Shown in pieces: positions 3,535 to 62,746 of a stretch of DNA of 64,000 nt. Source of the stretch: Rhodamnia argentea (taxonomy: Eukaryota; Streptophyta; Magnoliopsida; Myrtales; Myrtaceae). Location of the stretch: assembly GCF_020921035.1 (NCBI RefSeq), contig NC_063151.1, positions 30,262,934 to 30,326,933 on the forward strand, written 5' to 3'. The notes beneath the pieces are model-generated. The model did no database searches. It worked only from the letters and a program-made list of their open reading frames with translations, and was not told the origin of the DNA. The stretch's first letter is position 1. Each line of letters starts with the position of its first letter. The position numbers and the translations under genes were made by a program.

Positions 3535-3538
<4 letters not shown>

Positions 3539-3582: not shown

Positions 3583-3585
<3 letters not shown>

Positions 3586-7978: not shown

Positions 7979-8029
7979 CCACGTGGCGTCTATCTAAGCC
8001 CCAGCAACTGTTTATCAACGGGGGATAAA
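7979..8029 (-). promoter_or_regulatory. light-responsive promoter motifs of psaG
   Basis: A perfect palindromic G-box, CCACGTGG (7979-7986), lies about 170 bases before the psaG start. GATAA-type I-box cores follow on either strand at 8011-8016 and 8024-8028, and a CCAAT (reverse of ATTGG) lies near 7943. G-box plus I-box pairs are the known signature of light-regulated photosynthesis genes. Use of these sites is inferred. Confidence 0.55.
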
Positions 8030-37395: not shown

Positions 37396-38449
37396 AATCG
37401 CCACCGATGGAGAGCGCCTCGGGACCGCCGAAACGATCGGTCAAAACGCCGGCATGCGAAGCGGCGGCCACCACAGGCAGCGGCGATGCGGTTCGGTGCG
37501 GATGGTGTGGCTGAGACTGGTGGGAGGTTTCCCACCAGAGGTTCTCCCTTCCCCTTCCTTCTTCAATCAAGGGCGTCGGTGGAGCAATCCCTTCATATTT
37601 ATAGAGTTGCGTAAATCGTATTTTGTACAGTCGAGAGGCAATTGTCGCATATTTACGGACAAGCCACTGTATTACTGAACAGTGAATGCGGTGAAGAAGA
37701 AGAAGAAGACGACAGACAAGCCGACGACCCCGACGAAGGAGAAGGGCCGGTGAAAGAGAGCAAAACCGAAAGCGGTTAATCGGAAGTACAGTAGTTGGCC
37801 GTGCGTGGAGGGAAAATTGTTATCGCCTTTATTCATTTAAATGTGGAACAATTTCAAATAAATACACGAAATGTCCTCTTTTTTTTTTTTTCAAATAAGA
37901 GTTTGAAATAAACTTTATTACATGTAAAGTTCTGACGTGGTAAAATCGTCTCAAACTTTTGCCAGAGAGCATGTGACTATTTCGACCGTCAAAATAAGGG
38001 TATTTTGGTAAAATAAAAAAAGAAAAGGGAAAGGAAAAGAAAAGAAAAACAAAAAAAGGGAAAAATAATTTTAAAAGTAAAATGACGACAATGCCCTTCG
38101 GCCGGCTAGGTCAAGCCATTCTTCAAGACTTATAAGGTCACTTCAGGCTATTATTTGAAACAAGATTCACTTCAGGCCCTCATTTAAAATTTTCCTTTTA
38201 AATATTTATCAAGTCAATCGATATTATTTAAATGTATTGAATCGATATAACATCTCTCGTTAAAATTTTCCGTTATATTTGATCAGCAACCGATTTCTAT
38301 TACGACCAAAAAAAAAAAAATGAGGTGCGATTATCCGAATCAATTTTAAAGATCGTGTTAACTAGATAAGGAATTTATTTTATTAAGCGATTCGTTCGCT
38401 TGTCGAAGTATCTTCGATGACCATTATATGGTACTTAGAAGAATTATGT
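37396..38449. other. KH-gene promoter region and a small inverted-repeat element
   Basis: 37396-37700 is GC-rich and contains the presumed leader and promoter of the KH gene. A small inverted-repeat element lies at about 37877-38208. Its left arm is TTTCAAATAAGAGTTTGAA, the right arm reverse complement has AAATTTTAAATGAGGGCCTG, and the core is CTTCGGCCGGCTAGG near 38096. It resembles those at 41391 and 41758. No coding gene is seen. Confidence 0.5.
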
Positions 38450-39700
38450 GAAGTCTTGATCAAAATTAATAAAGAGTTAGGAGAGGTACATGGTGCTAAC
38501 GCTTGTTGTTAATCTATTGGCTAAAGCACTCTCCTTTGGAGAATCCTTTAATGCCATCTATCAAAACGGGGATTTGGTTACTCCCAACCACCAAGCTTAG
38601 TACTCAGGATTCAACACGTTAATCAAAAGGGAAAACAAAAATGTCATTGTCTTAAATGCTTTAGAATTATTGGGTAGAAACTGATTGCTTGTTTTTAAAA
38701 TTTTACAACCGGGTAAAGTATCATTCCTCCTAGTATATATCCATCCCTCGAGATTAAAAAAAAAAGACGTTTACAAAACGTTGGGGTAGATAATATATTT
38801 ATAGCTTCAATCTCCATCAAGGTGATTATTGTTTTATTATAATCACTAAAGTAATCTTTCCTCTTCGTAAATAATCGATAATTCCGCGTAAACTCCTTTA
38901 TAATTAGCGAAGTTGGGTGGAGTGTTGGGAGACCTTTGGTTCTGATGGTCGCCGGTTCTGATCCCACCAACTATCTGCCACAAAAAAAAAGAAAAAAGCC
39001 TTTCGGGTCAAGGCCATCTGCACAAGTAAAAGACTTGAGCTCAATCGGTTTGCAAGGCCGCATGGTATTTTATGAATCTCCAATAGGCGGGTCTCGATAC
39101 CGATGTTTCTGAATCTCCATCAAATGGGCTAAAAAGCATCAAATATGATTTATTTTCGTGCCGGATTGGGTGATTGGAGTACGTTAGTCAACTTCTCTAA
39201 TTAAAAGTACTAATCAACCCTAATCAACTTTTTAATAAACAATACTATTAAACTTAAAAGAAGCAAAACAAAAGTGGAAAGAATTCGCGGGCCATTTCGT
39301 TTCTTAGGTTGCTGTAATCGAGACAAATGGGCCCGCTCAGCTTTCCTCGGGCGCGTATCTAGAAGTTGGACTTGGTCCGTCCATGTTGGACTTATTAAAA
39401 AAAGGAAAATTTAAAGGCCTTCGGTTCAAGCAAAATTAGAGAAAAAAGATTTAACTTTTCTGTCAAAATTTAGAATATTATCTAAGATTCAAACAAATAA
39501 CCAACAAAAAATTAAAGGAGGCTAGTTTTTTTTATTGATCTGTTCTATCCCTAACTCTCCTTTCTTTAACTTTTGATTTGTCTCTTTGCAAAGTGCGGGA
39601 GTCGAATCTCACGTTTACGATACTAACGTCCCCACCCCACAATTCGTTTGCCATGAGACCAATTCATGTGTCGAGATTTGCATGTTGTGAAAGTTTAAGG
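38450..39700 (+). repeat. left part of tandem duplication unit A (non-coding)
   Basis: 38450-39130 aligns with 50846-51420, sharing AGTTAGGAGAGGTACA(T/C)GG, ATGCTTTAGAATTA and TAAAGTATCATTCCT. 39280-39700 aligns with 52600-52945, sharing CAAATGGGCCCG, AGAAGTTGGACTTGG-type words and TCGAGATTTGCATG. The order and orientation are the same, so this is one duplicated segment later broken by insertions in each copy. Confidence 0.8.
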
Positions 39701-40170
39701 AAAAAAATATGAGAGATGGCATAAAATTGCAAATTTTACACATTTGTCTATGGATAAGAAAAGAACGGCCCTATTTCCGCCCCATCTTTGGCTTGGTACA
39801 CACCTTTTATCATTAAGTGACCTTTTCACCCTGATTTTTTTTTTCCTCTCTCATCTATTTTCTCCATCTTCTATGTTTATTGTTAATTGATTAAAACATC
39901 TAATCATTAATTAAGCATGCTCTTTCTCTCTCGTGTTTTTTTCTTACTACCACCATTGCTTCTCCCATCTTCTTTGCTAATTATGATCAATTGAATTTTG
40001 AAATACTGTCAAGTTTTCTACTTTGGTCCATAAAATTCTATTTGGGTTTTACCTGTCTCATCTTGCTCCATCTATTGCCTTGTCTGATGCCCTCGGAAGA
40101 AACTTGCCCCATTTGGGATAGAGCCTTGGGCTCGTCCCATCACTATTAAGATGCACAGAAAAGTTACATC
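39700..40170. other. unassigned AT-rich intergenic DNA
   Basis: Nothing recognisable is seen; it is the start of the ~7-kb insertion-rich stretch that separates the halves of duplication unit A. Confidence 0.5.
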
Positions 40171-40814
40171 AAGGCTTCATTTGTTTCACGAAAAATAACT
40201 TCTGAAAAATATTTTTCAGATTTTTTGATGTTTGGTTCGCGAAAAAACAAGCTAGTTAAAGAAAACATTTTCACCCATGAAAAAATTCTTTCAAAAGTGA
40301 GGAAAATATTTTCCTCTTCTTTCATTCCTCCTTTCTTTCACATTTTCTTTCTTTTTAATTATTTTTTTTACTTTTTTCATTTTATTTGTTTTTCTGGATC
40401 CAACAATTTCATTTTTAAATTTTTTTTCTTTTCCCTTCTTCTTCTCCATTCTTCTTTGGTCGGTCACTTTGGCCACAACCGTGGCTAGCGACCAGCCATA
40501 GGCAAGTAAGGCCAAGGGTCACCGATGGCGAGCTCAAGGTTGGCGAGGCTCGACGGCCAAAATCGGGCGAGCTCGAGCCTTGCCGGCCGGTTGCCAACCA
40601 AAATAGAATAGAAAAATAAAAAAAAAAAAAAAAATTTTATTAAAAGATGTATACTGTAAAATTTGATTTTCCTTACCAAATGGAGGAAAATATTTTGCAA
40701 TTCATTTTCATGTTTAAGCAAAACACTGAAAAATATCATCATTTTCCTGGAAAACGACTTTCCGAAAAATATTTTTCAAAAATGCCACATTTTCTACGAA
40801 ACAAACCGAACCTT
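40171..40814. mobile_element. inverted-repeat element with GC-rich core
   Basis: The left end AAGGCTTCATTTGTTTCACG pairs with the right end (reverse complement AAGGTTCGGTTTGTTTCGTA). Both lead into TGAAAAATATTTTTC. Inner arms share GAGGAAAATATTTTCC. The core (about 40475-40595) is GC-rich with GGCGAGCTCAAGGTTGGCG and CGGGCGAGCTCGAGCC. Same family as 21772-22860. It has no coding capacity. Confidence 0.65.
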
Positions 40815-41390
40815 GAAGAATTAATAGTCTAAGTAAAGTGTGGTTTTTTGGACCAAAGTAACAAACTTAAGAGAATTTCAAATTTTAATTAACCATAAGA
40901 TACAAAAAAGATGGGAGAAGCGGTGGCGGCAGATAGAAACAAAACATGAGAGAAAAATGCTTAATTAGTTAAAGAAAGGCGAAGAAAAGAGATGGGATAG
41001 CAAATATTAGAGAGAAATGGTGATTAATTTTGTTAAAGTGCCGTAGAAATAAAGCTCGCCCAAAGGAAAATCGTATTGAGGTCACTTAACACAATGTCTG
41101 AATGTTATCTGAACGTTAGAAAAGAAAAAAAAATGTATTATCGTACAAACACTTTTTATGTATATTCAGACTACGAGAGAAGAATATAAATTTATTTATA
41201 TAGTATACAAAAACCCTCCTAATCCTTTCGAATCATATTTGGACATACTTGGAGGAATATAAAATCGACAATATTGTGCTTTTAAAATCACTTCTCTTTC
41301 CGACCAACAAAAACAAGAAAAAAGAAACAATCGCTTCTCTTCCCTCCTACCAAATTATGTGTAAAAGTCAGAGATCCTCTTTGTTTGATA

Positions 41391-41735
41391 TAAGAAAAAA
41401 TTTCAAGGAAGTGTCTAAAGTAGATTTTCTTTCAAATAAGGATATGAAGTGTCTTCATTGTTTTAAAGAAGAGCTTAACCAAGAGTATTTTCGTCATTTA
41501 AATTTTTTACTTTTTTTTTCCTTTTTTTCCCTTCAAGGAAGGGGAATGGCCACCGGCAAAAAGGAAGGGAAAAAAATAAAAAAAATAAAAAGTAAAGGAA
41601 AAAAGGAAAAAAATCAGAAAATGTAAATGACGAAAATACCATTGGTAAAACCCTTCTTTGAAATAATGAGAACGCTTTAGGCCCTTATTTGAGAAAGTGA
41701 TAACAATTCATATCCTTATTTGAAAATTTTCCTTA
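41391..41735. mobile_element. small inverted-repeat element with GC-rich core (family of 37877)
   Basis: The left arm (AAAAAATTTCAAGGAAGTG) and the right arm (reverse complement GGAAAATTTTCAAATAAGG) match. The interior has an A/T-rich hairpin around GGCCACCGGC (about 41548). It is non-coding. Confidence 0.45.
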
Positions 41736-41757
41736 CTATAATGATATAAAAACATGA

Positions 41758-42138
41758 GAATATTTCAAATAAGGGCTTGAAGTGCTCTCATTTTTTTTAA
41801 ACAAGAGCTCAAAGTTGTTCTTATTTTAAATAAAGGCCTGACCAATGCATTTTCCTCATTTTCTTTTCCTTTTTTCCTTTCCTTTTTTTCAATATCTTTT
41901 TTTTTCCTTTGTTTCGGATGGCGAGGACTTGCCTCGCTTCGATGGCCGAAACAGAGGAAAGAAAAACAAATGGGACAAAAGAAAAGAAAAGAAAAGAAAA
42001 ATAAATAAGAAAAATAAATAATTAATTAAAATGATGAAAATGTCATCGGTCGGGCGCTTTTTTGAAACAAATAGGGCACTTCATATCTTTATTTCAAAAA
42101 ATAAAAGCACTTTATTCCCTTATTTGAAATTTTCCCTA
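41758..42138. mobile_element. small inverted-repeat element with GC-rich core
   Basis: The left arm (GAATATTTCAAATAAGGGCT) pairs with the right arm (reverse complement AGGGAAAATTTCAAATAAGG). The core ATGGCGAGGACTTGCCTCGC (about 41919) is palindromic. It is adjacent to and related to the element at 41391. Confidence 0.55.
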
Positions 42139-42244
42139 GAAACATGTGCATTTTCATTTATCTAATTAGACAATACGTTTTAATCCTATAAGTATGCAAC
42201 TTTATACTCTCCATCGCTATATAACCATCGCTATGTGGATTATA

Positions 42245-42972
42245 AGGGCGTGCATGGTAACACTTCTGAAAATGAATTTCTGCTATGGAATTCTGTTATA
42301 GAAATGCATCTAGAGCAGAAATTCGTTCGATTACGCAACGTTGCATTTCTACTTTTGAAGTTTTTTTAAGCCAATTTCAAAAGTTAAAAAAAGTTCCTTC
42401 TCTTTCAGAAGCAGAAATTTCTCAACATCAATATTTCACTCATTTCGATTTCTTTTCATTTTCGGTGCATCTCTCTCCCAACCATGTGTCCGCCGTCACT
42501 GCCTACCGCCGACCTTCATCAACCGCCATTGCCCCCTCCGCTGCACCGCTACCGTGACCATTGCCCATAGTCGCCAACCGCCAACCATTGTCGATTTTTG
42601 CCGCCCATTGCTAACCACCGCCTATCACCGTCGCCCACCATAGACCATTGCCTGTCATAGAGTCACCGTCTCCGACTGCCGGAGTAAAAATTAAATAATA
42701 ATTTTTATTTTTAACAAGTAAATAATATTTTTTAATAATAAAATTTAATTTTAAGGAAAATTTTAAAAAATAAATATGAAGTAGAAAATTTTCAATCGCT
42801 GAAAATAATTTTTCATCAAATATTTTGTATTAATAATGTTCCAAAAATATAAATTTTCAATGGTTACCAAATGTATTTCTACGATTAGAAATCAATTTAC
42901 GGAGCAGAAGTAGAAAAATTTATTTCCGGTCAGAAATTTATTTTAAAGTAAAAGTATTGCCATGTGTGCACT
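42245..42972. mobile_element. hAT-like MITE (~730 bp)
   Basis: The left end AGGGCGTGCATGGTAACACT pairs with the right end, whose reverse complement reads TAGTGCACACATGGCAATAC. A GC-rich, trinucleotide-like interior (CCGCC, CACCG, GCCATTGCC words, 42480-42680) gives a spurious open frame. A truncated relative lies at 19670-19902. Confidence 0.6.
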
Positions 42973-43183
42973 AAATTGCAGTAATCCACATAATTCAAGC
43001 AAAATTATCTTTGAGATTCATTCGTTCTTAACTTTCTCCCCATAAATATCTCTATATTAATTTTTATATCTTCACATTACTTAATTAAATTCGTGCCGCT
43101 AACGTGGTTGCAATTTTTATTTTTTCAAATTGGAACTTCTAAAACTTTTATCATATTTAGCATTGATGTGCAATATCACATGA
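42973..43183. other. spacer between two MITE-like elements
   Basis: AT-rich and non-coding; nothing recognisable. Confidence 0.4.
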
Positions 43184-43787
43184 GGAAAAATGGCATAAAT
43201 AGCCCATGAAATTTGAGTTAATGTGCAATGCATCCTTGAATTTTTAATTTATTTAATGTGATCATGAACTTTAATCAATAATGTAATGTTGTCCCTAAAT
43301 TTTTAATTTGTTCAATGTAGATCCTAAACTTTTTGTACATGTTTAATTTGTCATTTCATTACCCAATTTGAATTCCAACCCGATACGTATGAACGACAAA
43401 AAAAAAAAAAAAAGGCATTCAACGTATATTATTCATGTGAGATATTCAACTCAAAAGAATTATTATATTCTAATTTGAGTTGAATTTGATGGTTGAATAT
43501 TTTATATGAATAATCCAAGCGTATTGTTACTTTTTTGTCCGTTTTTCAAACTCATCCGAGTGAAAGCCAAATTAGAAAATTCCGTTAAAATATCGGACAT
43601 TTCATATAGTCTAGAGACTAAACTAAATATTTACCAAAAGTTTAGAGATCATAATGAATAAATTAAAACTTCAAGGACAACATTGCACATTAAGTTAAAG
43701 ATCATGTCCACTTTGAACAAATTACAAATTCAGAGTTGACATTGAACATCACGCCAAAGTTTAGGGACCATTTGTAAAATTATCCTT
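43184..43787. mobile_element. MITE-like inverted-repeat element with reiterated arms
   Basis: The left arm (GGAAAAATGGCATAAATAGC) pairs with the right arm (reverse complement AAGGATAATTTTACAAATGG). Arms are built from repeated TTTTAATTTGTTCAATGTG and ACTTTAATCAATAATG-like blocks. The middle contains an inverted TTCAACCATCAAATTC-type pair. A shorter relative is at 23540-23830. Confidence 0.55.
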
Positions 43788-43872
43788 CATATAATTTTTC
43801 AAAGTTTCTGAAAATTTAAAAAATATTAATTTTTATTTCGAGGGAAAATAAAAAGAAGAAATTATAGTTCTC

Positions 43873-46233
43873 GGGAGAAGTACACTACAACTGCGATAAG
43901 TTGTGTACAGTGCTAACTTTAATGCCAAAAATTTCAAAACAATCACTAAAGTATCAAACTTTTTTTTAAAAGCGATCACTTAAGTACCTACACTGATTTG
44001 CTTGTCAAAAATCATACGTGGCTCGCCGAAAGTACATGTGGACTTTCGAGTGACTTAAACTTAAAAATTAACTAACCAATTACAAAAAATACATTAAATG
44101 GAAGAAAAATAAGCTGAAAACTAAAAAAAAGAAAGAAATTTGTCCGGGGGGCAAGGGTTGTTGCTCTCACCATTGCCAGCAAAGGCCTGCAAGGGTGGGG
44201 GCTGGCGGGTGAGGCACGACCTCACAAATCTGGACGAGGTCGAGCCTCGCCGTCTCTGTAACCCATTCCTCTTGTTTGTCCACAAACTGTTCTTTGTTTT
44301 GCCAAAAAGAAAGAAAAACAGAGAGTTTGAGGAAGCTTGTGGGTGGAGGAGGAGGAGAGGAATTTTCTGGTCTGGGGGAGGTGAGGGGACTCCCAGACTT
44401 TCAAAAGCACTCGTCTTCCTCATATTATATTCTCTTTCATCTCCGGTCTTGATTTTTCCCATCCTTTGATTGATTATATTGTTGGGTTTCTATTTATTGA
44501 GCTTGAAGCTCAACTACCTAGATGTGCTCCAGCTTCTGCATATTTGGGAGATTGCTGGCTATTTGGGACTCTGTATCTCCCATAGAAACATTCATTTATT
44601 CATCTCGTATAAATGCGACCAGTTTGGATGTCAGTATTGTTGACGGCGAGGCTCGACCTCACCCGGATCCGCCAGGTGTTGAGAAAATCTTCGCTAAAAT
44701 ATTTTGATATTGACAAAATTGTGCTTATTCGTAATGAATCCAATGAATCCAATGAATACTTTAAATATTTTATCTCAAGTGATATATATGAATGAAGAAA
44801 CTTATATTGATCTTAATTAGTGTTCGGACTCTAAACAAGGTCATTGTCTATTTACTTATGAAAGAGTTGAATCGTATTATCCATATTGAGTAAAGTGTCA
44901 CTCATGTAGATCTAATTGTATCTTTGAAAAAGATTTTATTGAGCTCAAATTCAGAGTTCTAAGAGACTGTTTCTATTTTTGAAGAGTGTTGCAACATATC
45001 AAATTCCAAATTTTGTTTTTATTAGAAGACCCATGTATAACATATATCAATATGGCTGAAGAATTGTTTCTAAGGAAGTTCGTAATTCTCTATTGATGAG
45101 ATAGTTCCATAACGGATGATAGAATATCCCTAATTGGAGATTGCCTTTATTGAAACAAGATAACTTCCATATTGGAAGAACTCCACTTATGAAAATCAAA
45201 GATTGAGTTGTATGGGCGATCGAACATGAGAAGTTTAGATTCAACACCAACGGTTATCAAATCTCGTTAAATACAGTCTTATTCAATCAAGATTGATGGC
45301 GTTCAATCAACGATTGAAGAGCGATCCTTTGAAGATTTGTCTAACGGCTAATTTGGGGGTAAATGAGATAAAAAGGAGATCAATGGTGCTCTCACTAGTG
45401 TGCAATCGGAATAAAAAATTTCAAATTGTTAGAGTCCTTCATATTTTACTTTTATTGATTTCGTGAGCTGCATACTGCAATCTTTGAATAGCTTTGTAAG
45501 TGTGATTGAGAAAAGATATGTGATCATTCTAAAATAATTTCATCGTTTGTAAACCCTAATTAATTCAACTAGCGAAATCTAACCTATCGGTTGTCAAGGA
45601 AAGTGGACACATGCTTGATCTAAGCCGAACCACTATAATTATCGTGTGCAAATTTATCTATCTCGAAATTCTCTTTACTATACCCGATAGAATATTGCAC
45701 TCGTGTTCGGAATAAAAAACTGCATGCCTTTAGATTCTGATTCCTCGCGATATTTGATTTGATTCTTTTTATTCCACAATTTCCAGTAAAATTCGTTTAA
45801 AATCACATGTTTAACCCCTTTAGGATACAACATCAAGTAGAGCCTCGTCTAGGCCGGGCGAGGCCCCGCCACTTGTCGGCGAGGGTCGTTGGGCTAACCC
45901 CCACCCTTGCCGGCCTTTGCCGACGCCGGTGGGCCGGCAGAGGCACAACTCTCATCGCTTGAATAGTGCCCCTTTTAAAAAAAAAAAATTTCAGCTTATT
46001 TGTCTTTTATTTAATTTTTAGCTTAGAAGTCTACGTGAAATCATGTGGCCGGAGTTTTATTAAAAAATATGCCACGTCAGATAATAAATTTAAATATAAA
46101 AGTCATGTATTTTTTTATCGGAAAAAGCCACTTATTTCATTTCATCGAAATTTCTACGATTTGGCGCTGCTCTAAAAACTTTAAAATAAGTGCCGTACGC
46201 AACTTGTCGCACTCACGGTAGAGTACTTCTCCC
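43873..46233. mobile_element. Mutator-like fold-back element split by a solo LTR
   Basis: The ends GGGAGAAGTACACTACAACT (43873) and the inverse of 46194-46233 match each other and the ends of the MITE at 11376. Arms extend several hundred bases; for example GCAAAGGCCTGCAAGGGTGG (44178 region) matches the inverse of 45899-45930. Flanks (ATAGTTCTC and ACATATTTC) are only a weak 9-bp duplication, so the insertion is old. Excluding the LTR at 44677-45832, the element is about 1.2 kb and non-coding. A 35-base inverted pair at 44222-44256 and 44642-44676 (GGCGAGGCTCGACCTC) forms its core. Confidence 0.68.
44677..45832 (+). mobile_element. solo LTR inside the fold-back element (SIRE/Maximus-type Copia, 1156 bp)
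   Basis: The segment begins TGTTGAGAAAATCTTCGC, continues TGATATTGACAAAATT, and ends GGATACAACA, the TG..CA ends and wording typical of large Copia LTRs of the SIRE/Maximus lineage as I recall them. CCGAACCACTATAATTATCG near 45627 fits the 3' part of such LTRs. No primer-binding site or polypurine tract adjoins. The flanks CCAGG and TCAAG are a poor duplication. Its insertion separates two halves of an otherwise continuous palindromic core. Confidence 0.6.
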
Positions 46234-47324
46234 ACATATTTCCAGTTGCTTATGGCCACGCTGATCGGTCCGGCTGGCGTTGCCCTCCACTTCATCACTG
46301 TGAAATGGACGCCAGCCGAATTTCCACGGTACAATCACCGTTCCGATTAGCTTGGACGATCCATTTTACTCTTCCTTGTTCATTGTTGATTCTGAATCAG
46401 GGTCGTGCTAACCTCGAAGTTGTTATCGCATTGTTCCTGTTTCAATTTTGTTGGAAAGCCTCTCGACTGGAGTGTCTGTAGCGTCTGAGTCGTCGGATTC
46501 AATGGCTAGGGTTTTGAGTGTTCTTGACTGTTCTTGTGTCGTGTTGAGGAATTGATGGTCAGAGTTTGGCCATAGGGTTTCAGACAGATTTATCATTTAT
46601 CAGCATATGAGTTTGAAATTCCTAGTCCTCGGGCAATGCGATGGATCCTGCAATTCTGTCAAGTGCGAACAATTGCTTGCTGACCTCTGTGCATCATTCG
46701 TAGACGAGCATTTTCTGTAACAAGATGGCGTTTTTTGTTTTCTTCTTATGCAAGCAATTCGAACCATGACGTTAGTATGCCAAAGCTTTCATGGACCTAG
46801 GAGAAAGGGGGCTCAGTGTTTTCTGATTTTCTCACCAGTCGCTACCGCTAATTTTGGGCAAATACATGTTTGGTTACTTTGCATCTGTTTCTGCCAAAAT
46901 GAGTTTTGATATTAGAAGCGGTTGTATTCGGTCTCCTGCCTGAAAATTGTGTGTTGCTGCCTCTAGCCGGTTCAGCTTCCATCTTATGTTAAATCCATTC
47001 CTGACAAGCAGTTTAAGACTTTGTGGCCCAAAGAGGTTTGTTATGTTTTCCCTCAAAAAGATCTCGCAAAACATCAAGACCAATTTCTGCAGCGGGGTGA
47101 CAGCTGCTGTTGCGATGTTCGGCAGGCCGACATTGTATTTCTAACTACATATAAGTGATTGCATAGTGAAGGAATGGCCCTTGACAAAACAAATTTTAAT
47201 AGTTTATAAAGGTCTCATGTACATTTGTTGTCATTATTCACTGCTTTGAGAAGTTCATTATTTCCTTCAATTTCAGGGGGTCTTGCTTCTTTGCCTAGTA
47301 CCTGCTGTAACTTGACAAGCCCCG
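46234..47324. other. 3' flank of MYB80 copy A
   Basis: No gene is seen. From about 46665 the sequence aligns with 52950 onward in unit B, for example GACGAGCATTTTC and AGCCGGTTCAG. This marks the resumption of the duplicated unit. It probably includes the 3' untranslated region of the MYB gene. Confidence 0.6.
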
Positions 47325-48628
47325 TTACATGATGGGATTCATGAGATCATCTGCTGGTAAATCCCATAAAATACAGTTCGAGTTGAATATGCTGGATCCG
47401 CTTCCTAAATCTTTCTCTCCCTTGGACTCCTCCTCATTCTCTTCCTCGATTATTCCATCTAACCGGCCTTGTTGGTCCCCCACAGTGCACGTGCTTCCGG
47501 TACACATACTTGGGTTCCAAGGTGATCCATCCCCTTTGTTGCCAAACCCTGAATGGTCATACTCAAAATCTGAGGTAGATGGAGGGAAGCCACTGCATTC
47601 TCCTATGAAGTTCATTGCAGGCACCCCCATTGGCTCCCATGGCTTGGTTGGAGGCAGCATGTCAGGTTCCAGAATGGCCCTTGATAAGCCCAGCCTGATC
47701 TTATCCACAGGGTCCTCTTTCTCATTACTTTCAGTGGTGAGACAAGTGGATGTACCGGTCCCTTGTGGTGCATTGGATTGTTGGAGCTGGAAGTTGACAT
47801 GTTTCTTGGTCAGCAGGTGAAGCATTTCATCTTTGAAGCAGCCAAGGGCTGCCTCTGCGAGATGGGCCACGTGCGGTGGGGGCAGTGCCGTAGCAATCTC
47901 AGCCATGAGGTGGGAGAATGGCTTGTGAGTAACTGGATCGATTCCCATTCCTGAAAGTTTCTTTTTCAGCTTCGTGTTCCAGTAGTTCTTGACATCATTG
48001 TCCGTGCGACCGGGCAACTGGGCTGCAATTATTGACCACCTGTAGCAAAATCCAATTGTCATTTCTCAATCTTGGAAGAACAGAATGGCGGTAATGTAGA
48101 GGAGTTGAGAACAAGCTTCTGCAGAAGAGTGGATTGATCGATTGATTTACCGGTTACCAAGGACAGCATGGAGCCTCATGATGGTTTGCTCCTCTGCTTC
48201 TGAGAATTCACCGTGGTTCAAGTCCGGTCGAAGGTAGTTAGTCCATCGCAGCCTACAGCTTTTTCCACATCTCTGCAGCCCTACAAATTTGGTAATTCAG
48301 TTACTCGTTTTTTTCTTTGGCTTTGGGCACTTGTCAAATACGTAAATAAAAAAAAGATTGTCATTGTCAATACACTGCTTTTCTTGTTTTGTGTGCAATC
48401 TTTGGTATGGTAACAAGACCTTTTCTTATTTCCTTTATATTTCCTCTGAGTGCGTTTGTGCGAGAGAGAGAGAGAGAGAGAGAGAGAACTGGCACCGGCA
48501 TTTTTGGGAATGAGGCGCCAGTTACGGGTTCCGTGCTGGGCGATGTAAGAGGCGAGCTTCTTGTCTTCTTCAGGGGTCCATTGTCCCCTTTTGACATTGT
48601 CCTTCTCACAACAAGGAATGCGCCCCAT
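47325..48628 (-). CDS. MYB80: R2R3-MYB transcription factor, MYB80 type (copy A)
   Basis: Three exons on the minus strand: 48628-48496 (133 bases), 48280-48151 (130) and 48039-47325 (715), giving 325 residues. It starts [20 protein letters not shown], the MYB80 signature. The R2 repeat holds its spaced Trp residues, followed by the R3 repeat ([20 protein letters not shown]). After the repeats lies the MYB80-specific segment [19 protein letters not shown] and the [15 protein letters not shown] block. The C-terminus is [17 protein letters not shown]80 (formerly MYB103/MS188 in Arabidopsis) controls tapetum function and timing of tapetal cell death, so a role in male fertility is inferred. Odd points: Asn replaces the conserved Lys66 in LRPDLKHG, the first intron donor (CCG|GTGCCA) is weak, and a CT run lies just inside intron 1. 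All frames are open. Confidence 0.93.
48461..48487. repeat. GA microsatellite at the start of intron 1 of MYB80 copy A
   Basis: A 27-base GA run (CT on the coding strand) lies a few bases inside intron 1. The matching place in copy B (about 54560-54572) has only a short remnant, so the run has expanded in copy A or shrunk in B. Confidence 0.85.
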
Positions 48629-49993
48629 CTTCTGTATTCTTGTATCTTAGGAAATTCTGATGCTTTGGTACAGATAGATGAATTAGTTGATAGTTTTGGA
48701 TGAAAAAAGCAAATGAAGATGATTTCTCTACTTACACTCTTTTCAAGGATATCTTTTCCCTTCTTCTTTGTGTGCTTCTTGTGAAAAGAAACTCAAGCAA
48801 GACTGTTGTTTAGCCAATTTTCTATCCTGTATGTGAATGTGAAGAAATGGTGTGAGGTTTTTAATAAAGGAAGTGGTGTCTTCTTATATCAAGGGTTTGC
48901 CTTGCATGTGGCTATGGGCGATATAGCCCAAGTTACCATCAAAGGTGCGTGATTTAATTAAAGAATTCAACGCCACGGTGTGTGTGAGAGAAGGGCAGGT
49001 AGCTCACCCACAAGATGCTTGGTCAAAATCTCTCTCTCTCTCTGCGCGTACGTGTGTATTTAGTTGACTGTATCGGGGTTCTGCTAAAACTGGTGTGCTA
49101 ACAGTTAAGGTCACACATAATTGCCTCATGGAAGAGCTTGTCTTTCACAAAAGTTGAGGTTGCTGCACATGCGGGTCTTTCTGGCACTCGGTCTATCACT
49201 CCTAGTTCTAACGCTTTGGAAACATAATCATTCTGTGACTGCAAGAATGGCTGGTGCTTGCTGCTTGCTAGCAACTGGCCACAAAGAAAAGAAAATGGGA
49301 CCATGGACAATTTAGTCCCAGTCGTCTGTTGATATCTTATCAGTCCAGGACTAGTTATCAGTCCTCTCTTTTATGAAGACTCTTGACATCAGAGTGCAAG
49401 AATCTCGTCCACTGAGAAGATCGAGTGTCAAATATAATAATTTCCAAGCTTCTGTTTGTCACTGAGGTAGTTTCTTTGTCGATCTGCACATTTGTTTTCG
49501 TTATTTTTTCAAAGACGTATTCACAAACTAAAAAGGCGACTGATTTGCAGAACCATAATTGGTGCATGCTGTTGGCACAAGTCAAGCATATGACACAGAA
49601 TGCACGTATAGTCTAGTCTCACATTTTAGCTGTTAAAAATTGGAGAGAAGCTCCTGTTTCTTACCTAAGCTCAAGCAACCACCTTCTAGTGAGAGGAATG
49701 ATTCTGTACTTGGGATCTGAATGGGGGAGTTGAGATTCTATGATGCAAGGAATGTCTACATGAAATTCATCCAGATTCGTTCTTATTGATAGCAATCAAC
49801 GCAGGGGTTTGCTTGTATCTATTCATTGGCCATACTCATTGCCTGTTTCCTGCTCATTTTGTGCTTTTTCATTCCACGTCGCTCTAATCCCTGAATAAGT
49901 GCGAAACATGAATGTCTAGTACAGCAGCAAATTGAACAACTTTGGTGCTCCCTTTCGTATTCCCATAAGGAAGGAGAATTACAGTTTCTCAGC
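48629..49993. other. 5' region of MYB80 copy A, duplicated at 54707-56115
   Basis: No gene is seen. The sequence aligns with the matching region of unit B, for example ACAGTTAAGGTCACACATA (49101 and 55180) and the block TCACCCACAAGATGCTTGG. It contains the promoter of MYB80 copy A. Part of the 3' flank of the amino acid permease remnant is at its right end. Confidence 0.6.
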
Positions 49994-50290
49994 TTAGTTT
50001 GGCACTGATAAGCGCCTAAAAAATGAGCCAATGAAGCACAAAACTGTCGCAAGAAAGCAAACGAAGCTGATACTGAAGCAAACCACATACCCACGTCCTT
50101 TTCCTGCCTGAAAATGGACATCTGAACATAATAGGATCTCGACCTCCCCACCCTCCCCTCCTGCACCCAAATTAATAATAATAATAGGATCGGCACACCA
50201 AGGACCGCCTCGTCTAAAATAAATTTCCTCGCGCAAAATCACACATCCATTTTGGATAATGAAGTACGTAAAAGAATATTTTGCAACAAC
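49994..50290 (-). pseudogene. fused remnant of an amino acid permease (AAP) gene, unit A
   Basis: The first ~75 bases match the 3' end of exon 7 of the intact permease (56121-56200). The rest, from about 50068, matches exon 3 and the following intron 2 sequence (57764-57900). Exons 1 and 2, exons 4 to 6 and most of exon 7 are missing. The junction shares AAGCT on both parent sequences, as expected of a deletion by short-homology repair. The stop codon is altered and there is a frameshift from a T-run expansion (FFRR for FEAL). The gene is dead in unit A. Confidence 0.85.
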
Positions 50291-50845
50291 ATGTGTCGAG
50301 GCAAGACTCAATCTAGCCAAAGAATATTTGGCGACACAAACTTAGGGCAAACTTCTACATGATGTTGCCATCAATGAAAGTACTTCAAAAGAGAGAACTA
50401 TCACCGGATAAAAGTGCATTTACTTGTTATAAGTAGAAGTGCGGGTCAGTCCCGATCTCACCTGGGCATCGAACCTACGGGTTCTCGGTGGTTTCGACAA
50501 GAACTGGTTTAGCTCCCAGTAGAATGACCGATCTGGTTCTCGGCTCCTAGGGAAGGAATCATACCTATTGGCGGAACCAGAACCGACTCAGAATGTGCAT
50601 ATGTGTGTACATATATGTATGTATTATTTTAATAGAAACCACACAAAAAAAAAAAATAGAAGAGAAAGTATTTATAGCAGAAATCATAAAAAAAGAAAAA
50701 TAACACCGCCGGTTTTGGGACAAATCGGGACTTGCCGGTCCGTTTCCAAGGTGGACAGGGTCGGTCTATGGTTCCATAGACTAGGAATCGATCTTATCAG
50801 GTCACATTCTCAATTTCAGGATGTGAATTGATTATCCTTAACAAT
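50291..50845. other. junction between duplication units
   Basis: No gene is seen. It lacks a match in unit B and includes a fragment with the word GGTTCTCGG repeated. It contains the breakpoint between the end of unit A and the start of unit B. Confidence 0.5.
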
Positions 50846-52035
50846 TAAGTCTTGATCTAAATTAATAAGAAGTTAGGAGAGGTACACGGTGCTAATGCTT
50901 GTAATTAATCTGTTTATGCTGTCACTCTATAATTGGCGAAAGCATTCTCCTTGGGTGTCGTTCATCAAATGGGGGCCTTTGTCGCGACCACCAACTTTAG
51001 TACTCATGATTGGCGAGTTCTCTCCGTGAAAAAAATGACAAGAGAAGGATTCAACAAGTTAACCATTCATTTATTCATGCTTTAGAATTAATGGGTGAAG
51101 ACTGATCGGTTGTTTTTCTATTTTGCAATGGAATAAAGTATCATTCCTTCTGGTATGTATCCATTGCCCGAGATTAAAAGTTGTGTTTAAAAAGTGGTTC
51201 CTCTTCTTAAATAATTTTGTGTAAACTCTTTATGATCGGTGCAATTGAGTGGAGTGTTAAGAGACGTTTGTCGTGCGTTCTGATCCCATCGATTGCGTGC
51301 ATAAAACTCCGAGTCAATGCCACCTGCACAGATCAAAGGCTTGGATTTAATTAGTTTGTTGGGCCTGCGATGTTTTATCGATCTCTAAATAGACGGTCTT
51401 CACGCCGGTGCCTGTGAATCATTAGACACACTTCTTGCGAAATACTGATGTGAACTCCCTCTTAGTAAACTACAAAGGAAATCGAATTCGTTTTACAAAT
51501 GACACATAAATAAGATAGATAAATAAAAAAATGGCAATGCGTATCGTATGAGAGTCCTCTTTCTAAATAGAAAAAGAAATTGGAATCAATTTCAATAATT
51601 TTTTGTCATCTCACCGTGAATTGTTAAGTAATCATACAGCGTCACGGTTGCAACAGATGTTAAGAAATAAATTGTTTGTTTATTGTGCTTGAACTGTTTT
51701 CTGAGTTCCCTATTGTCACGCTTTTCTTTTCTTTTCTTCGTTTCTCCTCCTTTGATGGACATCCGAAAAGCTGGTGAAAAGTGATTTGAACCGTCTATTT
51801 TTGTAGATCCATAATTATTTTTGAGTTGATTGTCACAGATTCTACGGACAATACAAGACTTTGGTATTTTCAATGTATACAGATAGAATAAAATATACAT
51901 TTAATAAAATTGAAAAAATATCACAAGAAATCCTATCCGGCAACACATGGTCATCTTAGCATGAATTGACACCTTGAAAGATTGATTATAACCACTTTTT
52001 TAATATATCACGAATTTAATTACGAAAGTAAAAAC

Positions 52036-52223
52036 CAATGAGGCGTTGGTTGAGTTGGTGAGATCCTTGAGCCTTAAACGGTTAAAGCGATGAGGTTCCA
52101 AGTTCGAATCTCCCCAGCCTCGTCTTGGGGGACTTAACCGGTGGCATTGGCGCTCATACCCTCACCACCCCTAAGGAATAGTCCATTACACGTGGGAAAC
52201 CTCGGTTACCAAAAAAAAAAAAA
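52036..52223 (+). mobile_element. tRNA-derived SINE (~188 bp)
   Basis: A box-A sequence TGGTTGAGTTGG (52047-52058) fits the pol III consensus TRGYNNARNNGG, and a box-B sequence GTTCGAATC (52102-52110) lies ~50 bases on. The element ends GGTTACC plus a 13-base A run (52211-52223). It fits the standard tRNA-type SINE pattern. No protein is encoded and no clear target duplication was found. Confidence 0.82.
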
Positions 52224-52225
52224 GA

Positions 52226-52577
52226 GGGAAAACGCTACCAAAAACCCTAAACTATGCTCATTGTGACACATTTACCTCAAACTTTTCTTTGTGACACAAA
52301 AAGCCCTAAACTTGTACGCATGTGACACATTTACCCCAAACTTTTAGGCATGTGACACATTTATCCCAAATTTTGAGGTAAATGTGTCACATAAAATATA
52401 AGCTTAAGATTTTTGATGTCAAAAAAAAAAATATTTTGAGGTAAATATGTCACACGGGTACAAGTTTAGGGTTTTCGATGTCACAAGAAAAATTTTGGAG
52501 TTTCTGGTGTCACAAAAAAAATTTTGGGGTAAATGTGTCACAGTTGACATAGTTTAGGGTTTTTGGTGGTTTTTTCC
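52226..52577. mobile_element. MITE with reiterated TGTGACACATTTACC motifs
   Basis: The left end (GGGAAAACGCTACCAAAAAC) pairs with the right end (reverse complement GGAAAAAACCACCAAAAACC). Both arms read CCTAAACTATG, TGTGACACATTTACC and CAAA(A/C)TTTT in inverted order. The 352-bp unit is non-coding and MULE-like in arm structure. It lies directly beside the SINE tail. No clear target duplication. Confidence 0.7.
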
Positions 52578-52945
52578 GAAAAAAAAAATTGAGAAAGTAA
52601 AAGGAAAAAGACAGGAAAGAATTCGTGGGCCATTTCATTGCCTGGGTTGCTTTATTCGAAACAAATGGGCCCGTTGCTCCCATAGGCCCATATCTGGAAG
52701 TTGGACTTGGACTGTCAAGTCGGACCATACGATAAGGAAAAGTATAAGGCCTTTGGATTAAGCAAAATTATAAAGAAAGAGTTTTTTTTTTTTTTTTGCG
52801 CTCCCGTCAAAATTTGAAATATTATTCAAGTTTCGGAAAATGAAAAAAAAAATTATAGAGGAATTTTTTTTTTTTTTGGATCTCTCCTTTCTCTGACTTT
52901 TGCTTTGCAACTTCAAGTGTCGAGATTTGCATGATGTGTCGAATA

Positions 52946-53503
52946 GTTACTCTTTGACCTCTATACATCATTCATAGACGAGCATTTTCCGTAAAAAGAT
53001 TTGCGTTTTTATTCTTTTCTTCCGCAAGCGATTCGAACCTTACTTCCTAAAGCTCTTTAGAGCGTGGTTCTATTCTAAATCGACGATCAGTCACTTCTCC
53101 CCACCGCTTTTTTTTTTTTTTTTGGGTAATATACATGCTTGGATGCTCAGCATCTGTGTCCGCCATAATGAGTGTCGACATTAGAAGCATTTGCATTCGG
53201 TCGCTTGCCCGAAAATTGCGCGTTTTTCTGGATCTAGCCGGTTCAGGTTCCGTCTAAAGTTAAATCCATCCATGATAAGCAATTGCTGTCGGGATGTTCG
53301 TCCCCGCCTAGATTGTATTTCTAACTGAAGAAGTGCGGTTGCATCGTGAAGGGATGCACCTTGACGAAATCTCTCAATAGTTTATAAAGTGTCGTGTACG
53401 TTTGGCGTCATTATTCACTGATACGAGAAGTTCATTGTTTCCTTCAATTTCAGTGGATCTTGCCTTCTTTGGCTAGTGCCTGCTTGTTACTCGATGAGCC
53501 CCG
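52946..53503. other. 3' flank of MYB80 copy B
   Basis: Continuation of unit B aligned with 46665-47324. It contains the 3' untranslated region of MYB80 copy B; no other gene is seen. Confidence 0.6.
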
Positions 53504-54706
53504 TCACATGATGGGATTCATAAGATCATCTGCGGGCAAATCCCATAAAACACAGTCCGGGTTGAATATGCTGGATCCGCTTCCTGAATCTTTCTCTCCT
53601 TTGGACTCCTCTCCATTCTCTTCCTCGATTATTCCATCTAGCCGGCCTCGTTGGTTCCCTGCAGTGCACGCACCTCCGGCGCACATACTTGGGTTCCAAG
53701 GCGATCCGTCCCCTTCGTCGCCAAACCCTGAATGGCCGTACTGGAATTCCGGGGCGGATGGAGGGAAGCCACTGCATGCTCCTATGAAGTTCATCGCAGG
53801 CGCCCCCATTGGCTCCCATGGCTTGCTTGGAGGCAGCATGTCAGGCTCCAGAATGGCCCTCGATAAGCCCAGCCTGATCTTCTCCACAGCATCCTCTTTC
53901 TCATCGCTTTTAGCGGTGAGACTAGTGGATGTGCTCGCCCCTTGTGGCGCACTGGATTGATGGAGCTGGAAGTCGACGCGCTTCTTGGTCAGCAGGTGGA
54001 GCATTTCATCCTTGAAGCAGCCGAGGGCAGCCTCTGCCAGATGAGCCACGTGCGGCGGGGGCAGTGCCGTAGCAATCTCAGCCATGAGGTGGGAGAATGG
54101 CTTGTGAGTAACCGGATCAATTCCCATTCCCGAAAGCTTCTTTTTCAGCTTCGTGTTCCAGTAGTTCTTGACGTCATTGTCCGTGCGACCGGGCAACTGA
54201 GCCGCAATTATCGACCACCTGCAGCAAATTCCAATCGTCATTTCTCAATCTTGGAAGAACAGGATGGCGGGTAATGCAGAGGAGTCCGAGAACAAGCTTC
54301 GGCGGAGGAAAAATGACGTGGAAGGATGGAATGGTTGATTGGTTTACCGGTTACCAAGGACGGCATGGAGCCTCATGATGGTTTGCTCCTCTGCCTCTGA
54401 GAATTCACCGTGCTTCAAGTCCGGTCGGAGGTAGTTAGTCCACCGCAGCCTGCAGCTCTTGCCACATCTCTGCAGGCCTACACATTGATCATTGGCAATT
54501 CGGTTACTCGTTTTTTCTTTTAATCTTTGGCCTTGGCCACTTGTTAAATACGTAATACAGAAAGAGAGCGAACCTGCATTTTTGGGAATGAGGCGCCAGT
54601 TGCGGGTTCCGTGTTGGGCGATGTAAGAGGCGAGCTTATTGTCTTCTTCAGGGGTCCATTGTCCTCTTTTGACGTTGTCCTTCTCGCAGCAAGGAATGCG
54701 CCCCAT
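53504..54706 (-). CDS. MYB80: R2R3-MYB transcription factor, MYB80 type (copy B)
   Basis: Three exons on the minus strand, 54706-54574, 54477-54348 and 54218-53504, with exactly the same lengths as copy A (133, 130 and 715). The product is 325 residues. R2 and R3 repeats are complete, with the consensus LRPDLKHG and a normal 5' splice site (GCAG|GTTCGC). The MYB80 post-repeat block and C-terminal [14 protein letters not shown] are conserved. An in-frame upstream ATG (at about 54748) would add [14 protein letters not shown], but MGRIPCC is the family start. The C-terminal region differs from copy A at many sites, yet frames are intact, so selection has kept both genes. By family knowledge the role is regulation of tapetum development and pollen formation. 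Copy B is closer to the consensus and is the likelier ancestral-function gene. Confidence 0.94.
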
Positions 54707-55084
54707 CTTCTGTATTTTATCTTTAGGAAATTCTGATGCTTTTGGCACGGATAGATGAAAGGCAAATGAAGAAAGATTTCTCTTCTTACTCTCTTTTTCA
54801 AGGTTATTTTTTTCCCCCTTCTTCTTTGCGCGCTTCTTGTAAAGAAAATCAAGCGAGGCTGTTGTCTAGCCGAATTTTCTATCCTGTATGCGAGAGTGAA
54901 GAAATGGTGTGTTGATTTTTAATAAAGGGGGCGGCGTCTTCTTATATTAAGGGGTTGCCTTGCATGTGGCTCTGTGCGATGTAACCCGAGTTACCATCAA
55001 AGGTGCATGATTTAATTAAAGAATTCAACGCCACAGTGCGTGTGTGAGAGAAGGGCAGGTAGCTCACCCACAAGATGCTTGGTC

Positions 55085-55121
<37 letters not shown>

Positions 55122-56122
55122 TTGCGTGCGTGTGTATGTAGTTGACTCTATTGGGTTTCTGCTAAAGCTGGTGTGCTAACAGTTAAGGTCACACATAGTT
55201 GCCTCACGTAAGAGCTTGTCTTTCACAAAAGTTTGAGGCTGTTGCGCGTGTGGGTCTTTCTTGCACTTGGTCTATCGCTCCTAGTTCTTACGCATTCGAA
55301 ACATATGCTGTGAATGCAAGCATGGCTGGTGCTTGCTGCTTCTTAGCAATTACTTTTAACATGAACAAGTTAGTCCCAGCCGTCTGTTTATATCTGCATC
55401 AGTCCTCTCTTTTATGAAGACTCTTGACATGAGAATGAAGAATCTCGACGACTGAGAAGACGGAGTGTCAAATATGGTCATTTTCAAGCTTCTGTTTGTC
55501 AGTGATGTAGTTCTTTGTCGATCTGCATGATTTATTATCGTTATCTGTTAAAGACGTATTCAGAAACTAGAAAGACGACTGATTGGCCAAGCCATAATTG
55601 GTGCATGCTGTTGACACAACTCAAGCACGTGACAGAGGGTACATGTATATTCCCACTTGTTAGGTGTTAAAAATTTGAGAGAAGCTCCTGTTTCTTACCT
55701 AAACTCAAGCAACCACCTTCAAGTGAGACTAATGATTCTGTACTTGGCATCTGAAGGAGTTGAGATCCTAAGGTGCAAGGATTATCTGGATGAAATTCGT
55801 CCAGGCTTGGACTTGATCTACTGTAGACCTGGTTATTTGCAACCATTGATAGTACTTAATCCAGGGGTGTGATTGTATCTGTTCATAGGCCAGTGCATGC
55901 CAGTATTCATCACTATCTGCTTGGATGTATAGCCTGTTTCCTGCTCATTTTGTGCCTTTTCATTCCATGTCGCTTGTATCCCTGAATAAGTGCGCAACAT
56001 GAATATTTGGTACGTCATCAACTGAAGGACTTTGGTGCTCCCTTTTTCACCTTAGCAAAACAGGGAACTAATCATCTGATCTCCCCTCTTGTATTCCCAT
56101 AAGGAAGGAAAATTACAGTTTC
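54707..56122. other. promoter of MYB80 copy B and 3' flank of the permease
   Basis: Matches 48629-49993 in unit A. It includes a CT run (about 55091-55118). No gene is seen; short open frames have no domain. Confidence 0.6.
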
Positions 56123-58345
56123 TTAGCTTAGTTTGGCACTGATAAGTGCCTCGAATGAGCCAATGAAACTCAAAACTGTTGCAAGAAAGCAGACGAAGCT
56201 AAATATCCTAAGGATGACCCATTTTCTCGTCCAAGCTCCGATTTTCTTTTGCACAAAGTACATCTCCACTGGGAAATATATCGCCAACGGCCAGAAGTTC
56301 ATCGCACCCAACACTCCTAGAACCGAGTTGAAGTAAGGAAATACCATGGCTATTCCAGTTGTGGATATGACAAATACCGTGCGGAAGCACAGCCTGAAAA
56401 GATTCATCCGAATAGCCGGCACCAAGGGAAGCCTGAATGTGTAGAATTTGTTCACAAATCTGCTATTTGGGTATGTGCTGCTGAACCATCTCTCTGCTGC
56501 TGCAAATATGGGCTGACTGTACATCTGAGCAAAGAGACTCGGCATAAATGATGCAACCATGTTTTCAAAGTCTTAATCAGTTGTCAGAGTGCATAACCAA
56601 TTGAAGATCGAAAACGAGTTTAATATTGAGATAAAAACTTAAGGCAGGTATTGGTCAATTCCTTTTTTTTTCTTCCTATAAAAATCGGGTATTGTCATAC
56701 ATATACCTGGTATCCTCCAACCAAGTGGATAATAATGCACACATTCGCAAAGTCGACCAGCCAGAAGGGCTCAAAGAATCCCTCCCCGTTCACTATCCCG
56801 GTCAGGAGATTCCCCGGCGTGCCATTGCCAAAGGCTGCATATCCGAAGCATCCGCAGCAGAAATAAAAGAAGGTGGTTATGAAGATTGCGGCCATGGAGG
56901 CCCTCTTCATCGTCTGGTTTTCTGGTGGAGGGGACTCCAAAGTGTCCTGAACGGGACAGAAACTCAAGATTCGGTAAGCCTCTAGGCCTTGTGGATTGTT
57001 CTGAAACAGAAATTGAATTGAGTTCAAATAATAAAGCCAAGGGTCACCTGTATCTCAAGAAGAATGAGTGAGTATGGATACGCAAAAGCAATATCTCCAA
57101 GCGCCTCGAAGGCATTCCATAACTTCTTCTCAGCTTTAGCAGCCGGAACTCCTGCAATCCCTCCGGCGATTCTTCCATTTTCTGGAGTTTTCAAGAAATC
57201 GAGAGAGTCATCGCAGTAACTCCTAGGAGCTCTAGGCAATACTAAGAGAGTACGAAATTGTTCCTCCATTTATCAGATAGCAAAAGGAACTGATTCAATT
57301 TTATTATGTTTCGCTTCAAAAGATCAACAAATTTCTCGAGTATGAACAGATGACAGCAAGCACACCAACCTATGACTTTTGCAAAGCCGAGTCCTAGTCC
57401 AATGGAAGAATAACAAAAGGACATGATCGCGGCGACAACTGAAAGCCATTTCATGTTGTGGATGTCTGGTATCAGTGACATTACGATCTGTATAATCCCA
57501 AATAGCAGCATGTAGAAGCTGCTCCCATAGTGACACCGAGCATTTTGCCCTTCTCTGTGATAGCAATTCGATTTCCCAATGGCCCTGCATCCACACAGGG
57601 ATGCAAATTTTCCAGGTAAACGCCCAAATTAACAGTCTACAATAAAGATACCCATAAACAAGGCAGATTCACCCGCATAAAATTACTATATTTCTCTGAT
57701 CATGGTACCTCATACTGGTTGCAGTAGTTATAACGTAAGCTATATCTGTGCCATACAAGCTCAGATACTGAAGCAAACCACACACCAACATCCTTTTCGT
57801 ACCTGAAATGGTCAAAGAACATACCAGGATCGACACATCAAGAACGTCGTGTAAAATCACACAACCAATGCGAACAATAAGGTAGGTAAAAGACGTGATT
57901 GTTTCCCTACCAAGAAATACTCTAACTGCCTCCATGTAAGAATAGTTCCGCGTCCCTTTTACAGGGTCGGGTGTCCGGTAACAATCGGACAGAAGGAAAG
58001 CGGAAATGTAGGTGACTATCGCGAAACAAAGCAAGCACACCGGCCCAGCTATCCACCCCAACTGTGCTGTACTCCAAGCGAGGGACAGGACTCCGGAGCC
58101 AATGACCGCGGTGATGATATGAGCAATGCAACTCCATAAGGTTCCTGAGTAAGTGGAGCAACTTCAGATCCGTGCTTTTAATGCTCGGACCTCCGGATAG
58201 GATCCAAATTTGAAAAGCACACGAAGGAACCACACATGCATGTAGAAGACATAAATTATTTAAAGAGAGCCTGACCGGTTCTCCGCAAATGCCCATCGTC
58301 GTCCACTGAACCGTCAGCGACCTCGAGGGAGTGATGGACTGCCAT
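56123..58345 (-). CDS. amino acid permease, AAP family (AAAP/ATF superfamily)
   Basis: Seven exons on the minus strand: 58345-58276, 58144-57911, 57802-57709, 57584-57370, 57181-57048, 56946-56707 and 56524-56123. All junctions keep frame, and the product is 462 residues, within the family range (about 460-490). Family words are clear: TGTLWSCIAHIITAVIGSGV, LSLAWSTAQLGWIAGPV, SNCYHREG, NMKWLSVVAAIMSF, SYPYSLILLEIQDTL-type (here AYPYSLILLEIQDTL), GCFGYAAFGNGTPGNLLTG, PFWLVDFANVCI and GGYQMYSQPIF. About ten to eleven hydrophobic spans fit an amino acid/proton symporter at the plasma membrane. Wording in the second half is nearest the AAP7 type as I recall it. The first exon MAVHHSLEVADGSVDDDG is a short acidic cytosolic end. 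Exon 1 splice site is CG|GTCAGG. Intact, unlike the copy in unit A. Confidence 0.93.
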
Positions 58346-62600: not shown

Positions 62601-62746
62601 TTATTTTTCTATGTATAAAAGTCATAGCTTAGGATAGATATTGTATTACATTTATTCTAGCTGACATCTTTCCATAAAGTATTAGCTATCATGTACTTTA
62701 CATACTTGTAAGAAATAAAGTAATATTATCTCATCCAATTCTTACG
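59649..62746 (+). mobile_element. internally deleted Copia LTR retrotransposon (3.1 kb)
   Basis: Direct LTRs at 59649-59943 and 62452-62746, both 295 bases, begin TATTGGAGAAAG (a G-to-A change from the usual TGTTGGAG) and end CTTACA/CTTACG. They differ at about 20 sites, so the insertion is fairly old. A 5-bp target duplication GTTCG lies at 59644-59648 and 62747-62751. The first LTR is followed at once by TGGTATTAGAGCC, a methionine-tRNA primer-binding site, and the second is preceded by TTGCGGGGGTG, a polypurine tract. Most of gag, protease and integrase is absent, so it cannot move alone. Confidence 0.92.
60319..62450 (+). pseudogene. broken Copia pol remnant (integrase end, reverse transcriptase, RNase H)
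   Basis: Pieces in order: integrase C-terminal wording (SKPCLVLGYSLNQSAYKCYD), a Ser/Pro-rich linker, then reverse transcriptase (DVNNAFLHGTLMEEVYMQQP, with the catalytic YVDD near 61498) and RNase H (SSTKAEHHAIATTASEF). An in-frame stop lies at 61234-61236, a frameshift occurs just after YVDD (about 61510) and another stop at 61946-61948. A short gag-like 5' piece starts at about 59991. The reading frame is broken at several points, so no functional protein is made. Confidence 0.9.

Follow-up and report, generated by a model that had tools for sequence, protein, structure and literature searches.

A tandem duplication with two probable MYB80 genes and a probable one-sided loss of CpG sites in Rhodamnia argentea

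Two collinear blocks around a pair of MYB genes

We analyzed a stretch of 64,000 nucleotides from Rhodamnia argentea (the window; G000:C2:30262934-30326933), which comes from a 74-contig plant assembly totaling 346.7 Mb and holds two adjacent R2R3-MYB genes, probably MYB80 (MYB80-A and MYB80-B), together with an amino acid permease gene. A previous sequence-only reading had placed these genes in two units, A and B, that are collinear and run in the same direction. Indeed, self-alignment showed two direct blocks with the same order and orientation, connected by long direct diagonals of 69-86% identity, and shuffle-controlled local alignment agreed. The homology extends past the gene, and a tandem segmental duplication at this locus is confirmed (Table 1).

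Six pairs of segments make up the self-alignment: 47105-48345/53284-54555 (85.8% identity), 48479-50068/54559-56200 (77.4%), 46681-47013/52955-53284 (71%), 38451-38759/50847-51179 (69%), 39276-39556/52614-52898 (72%) and 50064-50138/57757-57831 (82%). Block edges were refined by local alignment at stricter costs, with 200 shuffles as control (20 for the last pair); local alignment at very cheap gap costs gave long spurious alignments and was dropped. The refined matches reach leftward to 38357 in unit A and 50771 in unit B, and rightward to ~57893 in unit B. Two edges are less firm. Different alignments put the right end of unit A at either 50197 or 50275, and the right edge of the insertion in unit A (46659/52932) is weakly supported, its score being reached by 5 of 200 shuffles.

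Table 1. Coordinates of the duplicated blocks and their features, in positions of the window
Feature	Position	Strand	Details
Unit A, left part	38357..39689	.	matches 50771-52938 in three local alignments that all outscore the 200 shuffles
Insertion splitting unit A, ~7.0 kb	39690..46658	.	holds dispersed LTR-like (long terminal repeat) repeat ~44677-45825
Unit A, right part (MYB80-A and permease remnant)	46659..50275	.	self- and local alignment
Junction between units, 495 bp	50276..50770	.	without convincing homology to either flank
Unit B, left part	50771..52938	.	local alignment; extra ~1.15 kb at 51421-52570
Unit B, right part	52933..57893	.	self- and local alignment
MYB80-A (probable MYB80)	47325..48628	-	exons 48628-48496, 48280-48151, 48039-47325; 325 aa
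MYB80-B (probable MYB80)	53504..54706	-	exons 54706-54574, 54477-54348, 54218-53504; 325 aa
Promoter block of MYB80-A, -280 to -410	48908..49038	-	TTGAC -398, TACC -373, TCAC -359, TAAAG (reverse) -335
Promoter block of MYB80-B	54966..55098	-	TTGAC -380, TACC -355, TCAC -341, TAAAG (reverse) -315
CpG-decay domain, copy A	46660..48930	-	3' flank, coding sequence, introns, 5' flank to ~-302
Permease remnant in A	49989..50275	-	exon 7 tail, then exon 3 start and part of intron 2
Amino acid permease, intact, 7 exons, 462 aa	56123..58345 (exons 58345-56123)	-	Pfam Aa_trans

We compared the junction with the 5' half of the permease and with the left flank and also asked whether it is a repeat, with no fit beyond a 58-base A-rich match to 38010-38068. 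This match is borderline: it scored 136, with a shuffle maximum of 128 in one test and of 145 in the other, where 2 of 200 shuffles reached 136. Elsewhere in the genome, a search that skips very common words returned 3 matches of 57-75 bases to about the same stretch. In the extra sequence of the left part of unit B, the stretch 52030-52220 looks by eye like a short interspersed element (SINE), with a tRNA-type B box and an A-run at its end; no unit A counterpart of it was found. Rfam gave no matches over the window.

Identity of the MYB genes and selection on the two copies

Both MYB80 genes are complete, as had been claimed from the sequence, and their exon lengths are the same (133+130+715 nt), with GT-AG introns throughout. 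Intron 1 measures 215 nt in MYB80-A vs 96 nt in MYB80-B; the copy A intron (48281-48495), which exceeds the other by 119 bases, starts with a weak-looking donor (CCG|GTGCCA) and then runs into a long CT repeat. Each protein carries an N-terminal R2R3 domain that matches PF00249 in two stretches (7.2e-35 for A, 8.6e-35 for B), and MYB80-A matched the WER structure at 2.3e-43. The proteins are identical at 290 of 325 residues, or at 291 of 326 positions if the stop is counted. The differences cluster in the variable region, the first 168 residues differing at positions 23, 66 and 168 only.

We tentatively take the letters of the conserved and C-terminal regions to be like those of MYB80, whose Arabidopsis form, AtMYB80, is also called MS188 or AtMYB103. 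According to the parts of PMC4205283 that describe it, MYB80 is an R2R3-MYB of tapetum and microspores with a 44-aa conserved region (aa 125-168), a variable region of 131-139 aa and an 18-aa C-terminal region. The two copies resemble that description: their R2R3 domain lies in aa 1-115, 139 aa separate aa 168 from the last 18 aa, a length that fits the published layout, and the region up to aa 168 is nearly identical, with aa 67-167 the same and position 168 being H/R in a comparison between the two copies only. The same source places a promoter block at ~-300 to -380 with the elements TTGAC, A/TACC, TCAC and A/TAAAG. All four are present in both copies, the likeness being to the description of the published block; since the elements are short and common, they are supportive only for the MYB80 identity. 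By the features described in PMC4205283, both genes are probably MYB80. Unlike the MYB80 described there, the genes here form two adjacent copies, one of which has a K66N change and a CpG-depleted gene. The promoter block is identical between A and B at 124 of 131 aligned positions, vs 84% in the remaining aligned 5' flank (p 1.6e-4), and the 500 bp before each ATG contained no TATAWA on the sense strand. Going by titles and abstract openings, no report of tandem MYB80 copies was found in the open-licence literature; among related papers, passages of PMC10022486 name MYB80 of Rhodomyrtus tomentosa as positively selected, and MS188 is treated in part of PMC10709546.

The pair appears constrained by two methods. 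NG86 gave nonsynonymous (dN) and synonymous (dS) divergences of 0.047 and 0.315 (bootstrap for dS 0.227-0.406) and a dN/dS of 0.150 over the whole coding sequence (bootstrap 0.098-0.236), falling to 0.021 in the first 120 codons; with YN00, dS was 0.221 and dN/dS 0.249. When codons holding a CpG transition were removed (293 of 325 kept), dS was 0.19 (NG86) or 0.14 (YN00) and dN/dS 0.18 or 0.28. Furthermore, 40 indels were counted in 2154 aligned noncoding bases vs 0 in 978 coding bases, where the noncoding rate would predict 18 (P ~1e-8). We also simulated one fully neutral branch 2000 times, giving it half of the 48 observed synonymous differences. In the first 168 aa this led to 38 expected replacements with a minimum of 10, whereas 3 were observed, and a stop codon was gained in 96.6% of runs. 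Taken together, these results make it unlikely that either copy went unconstrained for most of its history, and purifying selection on both MYB80 copies is supported.

These values also bear on the possibility that two allelic haplotigs were set in tandem by the assembler, which the sequence-only reading had kept as an alternative. Heterozygosity is possible in outbred plants and errors of this kind do occur in assemblies, but a dS of 0.22-0.32 (0.14-0.19 without CpG-transition codons) and a noncoding Kimura two-parameter distance of 0.08-0.32 between the units are far above usual allelic levels, and at this dS alleles are very unlikely. The blocks also carry different insertions, the permease is truncated in A, and the window is free of N and lies on a long contig (C2, with matches to 35.8 Mb) of a 74-contig assembly. 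An artefact of this kind is scarcely credible, and the sequence lends that alternative no support.

The permease is intact only in unit B, as had been noted, and unit A holds a remnant. In B the frame is open and PF01490 (Aa_trans) covers residues 23-457 of 462 (4.1e-99); we take the gene to be an AAP (amino acid permease). Only its part at 56123-57893 falls within the duplicated unit. The pieces of the remnant are joined across a ~1.55-kb deletion with AAGCT microhomology at the join (by eye), and its exon 7 tail has a 2-base length difference vs B. By local alignment, unit A homology stops opposite ~57893, a position within intron 2 of the permease. Unit A showed no sign of the promoter of that gene or of exons 1-2, so its permease copy probably never worked. 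The duplication breakpoint would thus probably lie in intron 2, with the A copy born truncated and non-functional from the start; a later deletion of its 5' half may be the alternative. A permease that was probably dead at birth says little about selection on MYB80. The sequence-only reading had proposed selection for two MYB80 genes by contrast with their dead neighbor: purifying selection on both genes is supported by dN/dS and the indels, whereas the contrast is weak at best. Contig C2 also carries, at a distance of ~20 Mb (10.71-10.81 Mb; L019, L021, L022), a cluster of related permease sequences with 51-78% identity by matched stretch.

Probable one-sided CpG loss and a changed residue in copy A

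The two copies are not equivalent, which the sequence-only reading had missed: copy A has a bounded domain of CpG decay and the K66N change. Between the copies, 95 CpG transitions were counted. From the insertion edge to 48930, CpG was lost 63 times in A vs 8 times in B, and further upstream 10 vs 14; none of 5000 permutations equaled the sharpness of this split. The boundary lies between 48930 and 48949, inside the conserved promoter block. By part, losses (A:B) were 31:2 in the coding sequence (exon 1 2:0, exon 2 1:0, exon 3 28:2), 4:1 in introns, 20:5 in the 3' flank and 18:14 in the 5' flank. At fourfold sites they were 12:0, with non-CpG transitions at 4:3, and in the left unit and the permease remnant they were symmetric (16:17).

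The loss of C in the coding sequence is graded by context. Per site, A vs B lost 0.29/0.04 at CG, 0.10/0.02 at CHG and 0.06/0.03 at CHH (counts of 31:2 at CG and 11:2 at CHG), and methylation levels in plants usually fall in this same order, CG > CHG > CHH. In the 3' flank the excess is at CG only, with CHG at 4:6 and CHH at 21:17. From this CpG decay we infer long-lasting DNA methylation over the transcription unit of copy A. Parts of PMC10400039 and PMC5453933 state that duplicate copies may differ in genic methylation and that, in 40 of 43 species, gene-body methylation is depleted at tandem and proximal duplicates. Like the retained tandem pairs with unequal gene methylation in those sources, the copies here may differ in methylation; unlike those pairs, their state is deduced from mutation patterns.

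The same direction of change would result if GC-biased gene conversion or recombination had raised G+C in B, instead of methylation depleting A. Non-CpG differences in the coding sequence are indeed skewed toward A/T in copy A (31:13, p 0.0096), and some of the asymmetry could therefore stem from GC-biased gene conversion in B. This account fits poorly with the graded CG > CHG > CHH excess, with transversions between weak and strong bases at 4:2 and with the fourfold non-CpG transitions at 4:3. The observed/expected CpG ratio of MYB80-B (0.717) is moreover near those of the permease (0.719) and a C2H2 gene of the window (0.748), though two other genes differ from both (PsaG/PsaK-type gene 0.97, EF-hand open reading frame (ORF) 0.554); MYB80-A stands at 0.447. 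As the main cause we regard GC bias as quite improbable.

The decay domain adjoins the insertion in unit A. Its repeat at ~44677-45825 is dispersed: 38 of 40 scored candidates match at 68-76% (6241 candidates in the first look), and among the matches are seven pairs on the same strand with an LTR-like spacing of 3.3-6.1 kb. None of the 4 insertion ORFs tried gave a Pfam match, and no clean target-site duplication was found by eye. We read the insertion beyond the 3' end of copy A as transposon-derived, and methylation spreading from it is a candidate cause of the CpG decay. A second repeat in the insertion (44254-44578) is 86% identical to one place on contig C8.

Position 66 is Asn in MYB80-A and Lys in MYB80-B. 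A genome scan for the motif W-x-N-Y-L-R-P-[DN]-x followed by K or N, in which the preceding residue was also restricted and other R2R3 forms are missed, found 73 sites with K, including copy B, vs 1 with N, which is copy A. Among the retrieved loci, K occurs in 7 distinct matches, N in 1 (copy A) and E in 4 of the type RWCNQLSP; in R2R3 alignments, WER, c-Myb and B-Myb carry K at the equivalent position. With K at 73 of 74 motif sites and in these three proteins, copy A is very probably the derived one at this residue. Position 23, K in A and N in B, varies among relatives.

Copy A could also be dying or silenced, methylated by spread from the adjacent insertion and still open because decay is slow. 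This would accommodate the position of the decay next to an insertion with a dispersed LTR-like repeat, the change at a site where 73 of the 74 motif matches have K, the weak-looking intron 1 donor and the greater loss of C from the A coding sequence at CG (31:2) and CHG (11:2). It is hard to reconcile with the lack of indels and stops, with 3 replacements in the first 168 aa vs the 38 expected under one-branch neutrality, and with a promoter block kept at 124 of 131 positions and upstream CpG losses in balance (10:14). We consider a dying copy A improbable.

Proposed retention and divergence of the pair

The reading that we prefer, with a probability of about 0.85, is an old tandem duplication in which both MYB80 genes were retained by selection, B remaining ancestral-like and A diverging both in sequence and in its epigenetic state. 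An unequal-exchange-type event would have copied the left flank, MYB80 with its promoter and the 3' half only of the permease, after which both MYB80 copies would have stayed under purifying selection. Judging from family features, the product of each gene is very probably a working R2R3-MYB regulator of tapetum and microspores. Copy B would have kept its ancestral-like sequence and CpG content, while copy A would have gained a transposon-derived insertion just past its 3' end, long-lasting methylation over its transcription unit and K66N in the DNA-binding region. Both copies would most likely have been retained through a partial split of the job, or of dosage, between them. The duplication is ordinary in kind; the asymmetry between the copies is unexpected.

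Several points weigh against this reading. The CpG ratios of the other window genes are wide (0.554-0.97) and the direction of change was read without an outgroup; the non-CpG lean to A/T in copy A goes the same way as the CpG loss. The decay domain also reaches ~300 bases into the 5' flank, although the start site normally stays free of gene-body methylation. For the complete protein, the neutral simulation gave a mean of 73 and a minimum of 24 replacements vs 35 observed, so that full neutrality is excluded by the conserved part only, and one copy may have been briefly relaxed. The name MYB80 is putative and goes by features described for the family. Finally, the genome search for further copies covers the best 123 of 428 candidates, among which no third MYB80-like gene was found, the closest other scored match to the pair being 67% over 92 aa.

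A bolder version would make copy A a functionally distinct, methylation-marked MYB80 in which K66N alters DNA binding, with A as a modulator, B doing the ancestral job and the promoter block as a hard boundary of the methylated domain; A may, for example, tune the negative autoregulation of MYB80 as a weaker or a competing form. We hold this version to be unlikely and put it forward tentatively.

Loss of MYB80 function leads to complete male sterility in Arabidopsis, according to part of PMC4205283, and copy number and division of labor therefore matter for breeding systems and engineered male sterility. A single-copy knock-out in Rhodamnia argentea might not give sterility. A pair under selection, in which one member has bounded CpG decay and a change at a near-constant residue, would offer a compact natural test of duplicate retention in a self-repressing regulator.

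Elsewhere in the window lie genes of the C2H2 zinc finger (1987-3654), photosystem I PsaG/PsaK (7324-7989), WD40 (14380-15057) and EF-hand (30047-30985) types, and we presume synteny of the window genes with the neighbors of Arabidopsis MYB80. A shortened copia-type element occupies 59648-62745, bounded by LTR-like repeats (59648-59942 and 62451-62745) that are 93.6% identical; between them, one of the 2 ORFs tried gave Pfam matches to RVT_2 and SH3_retrovirus.

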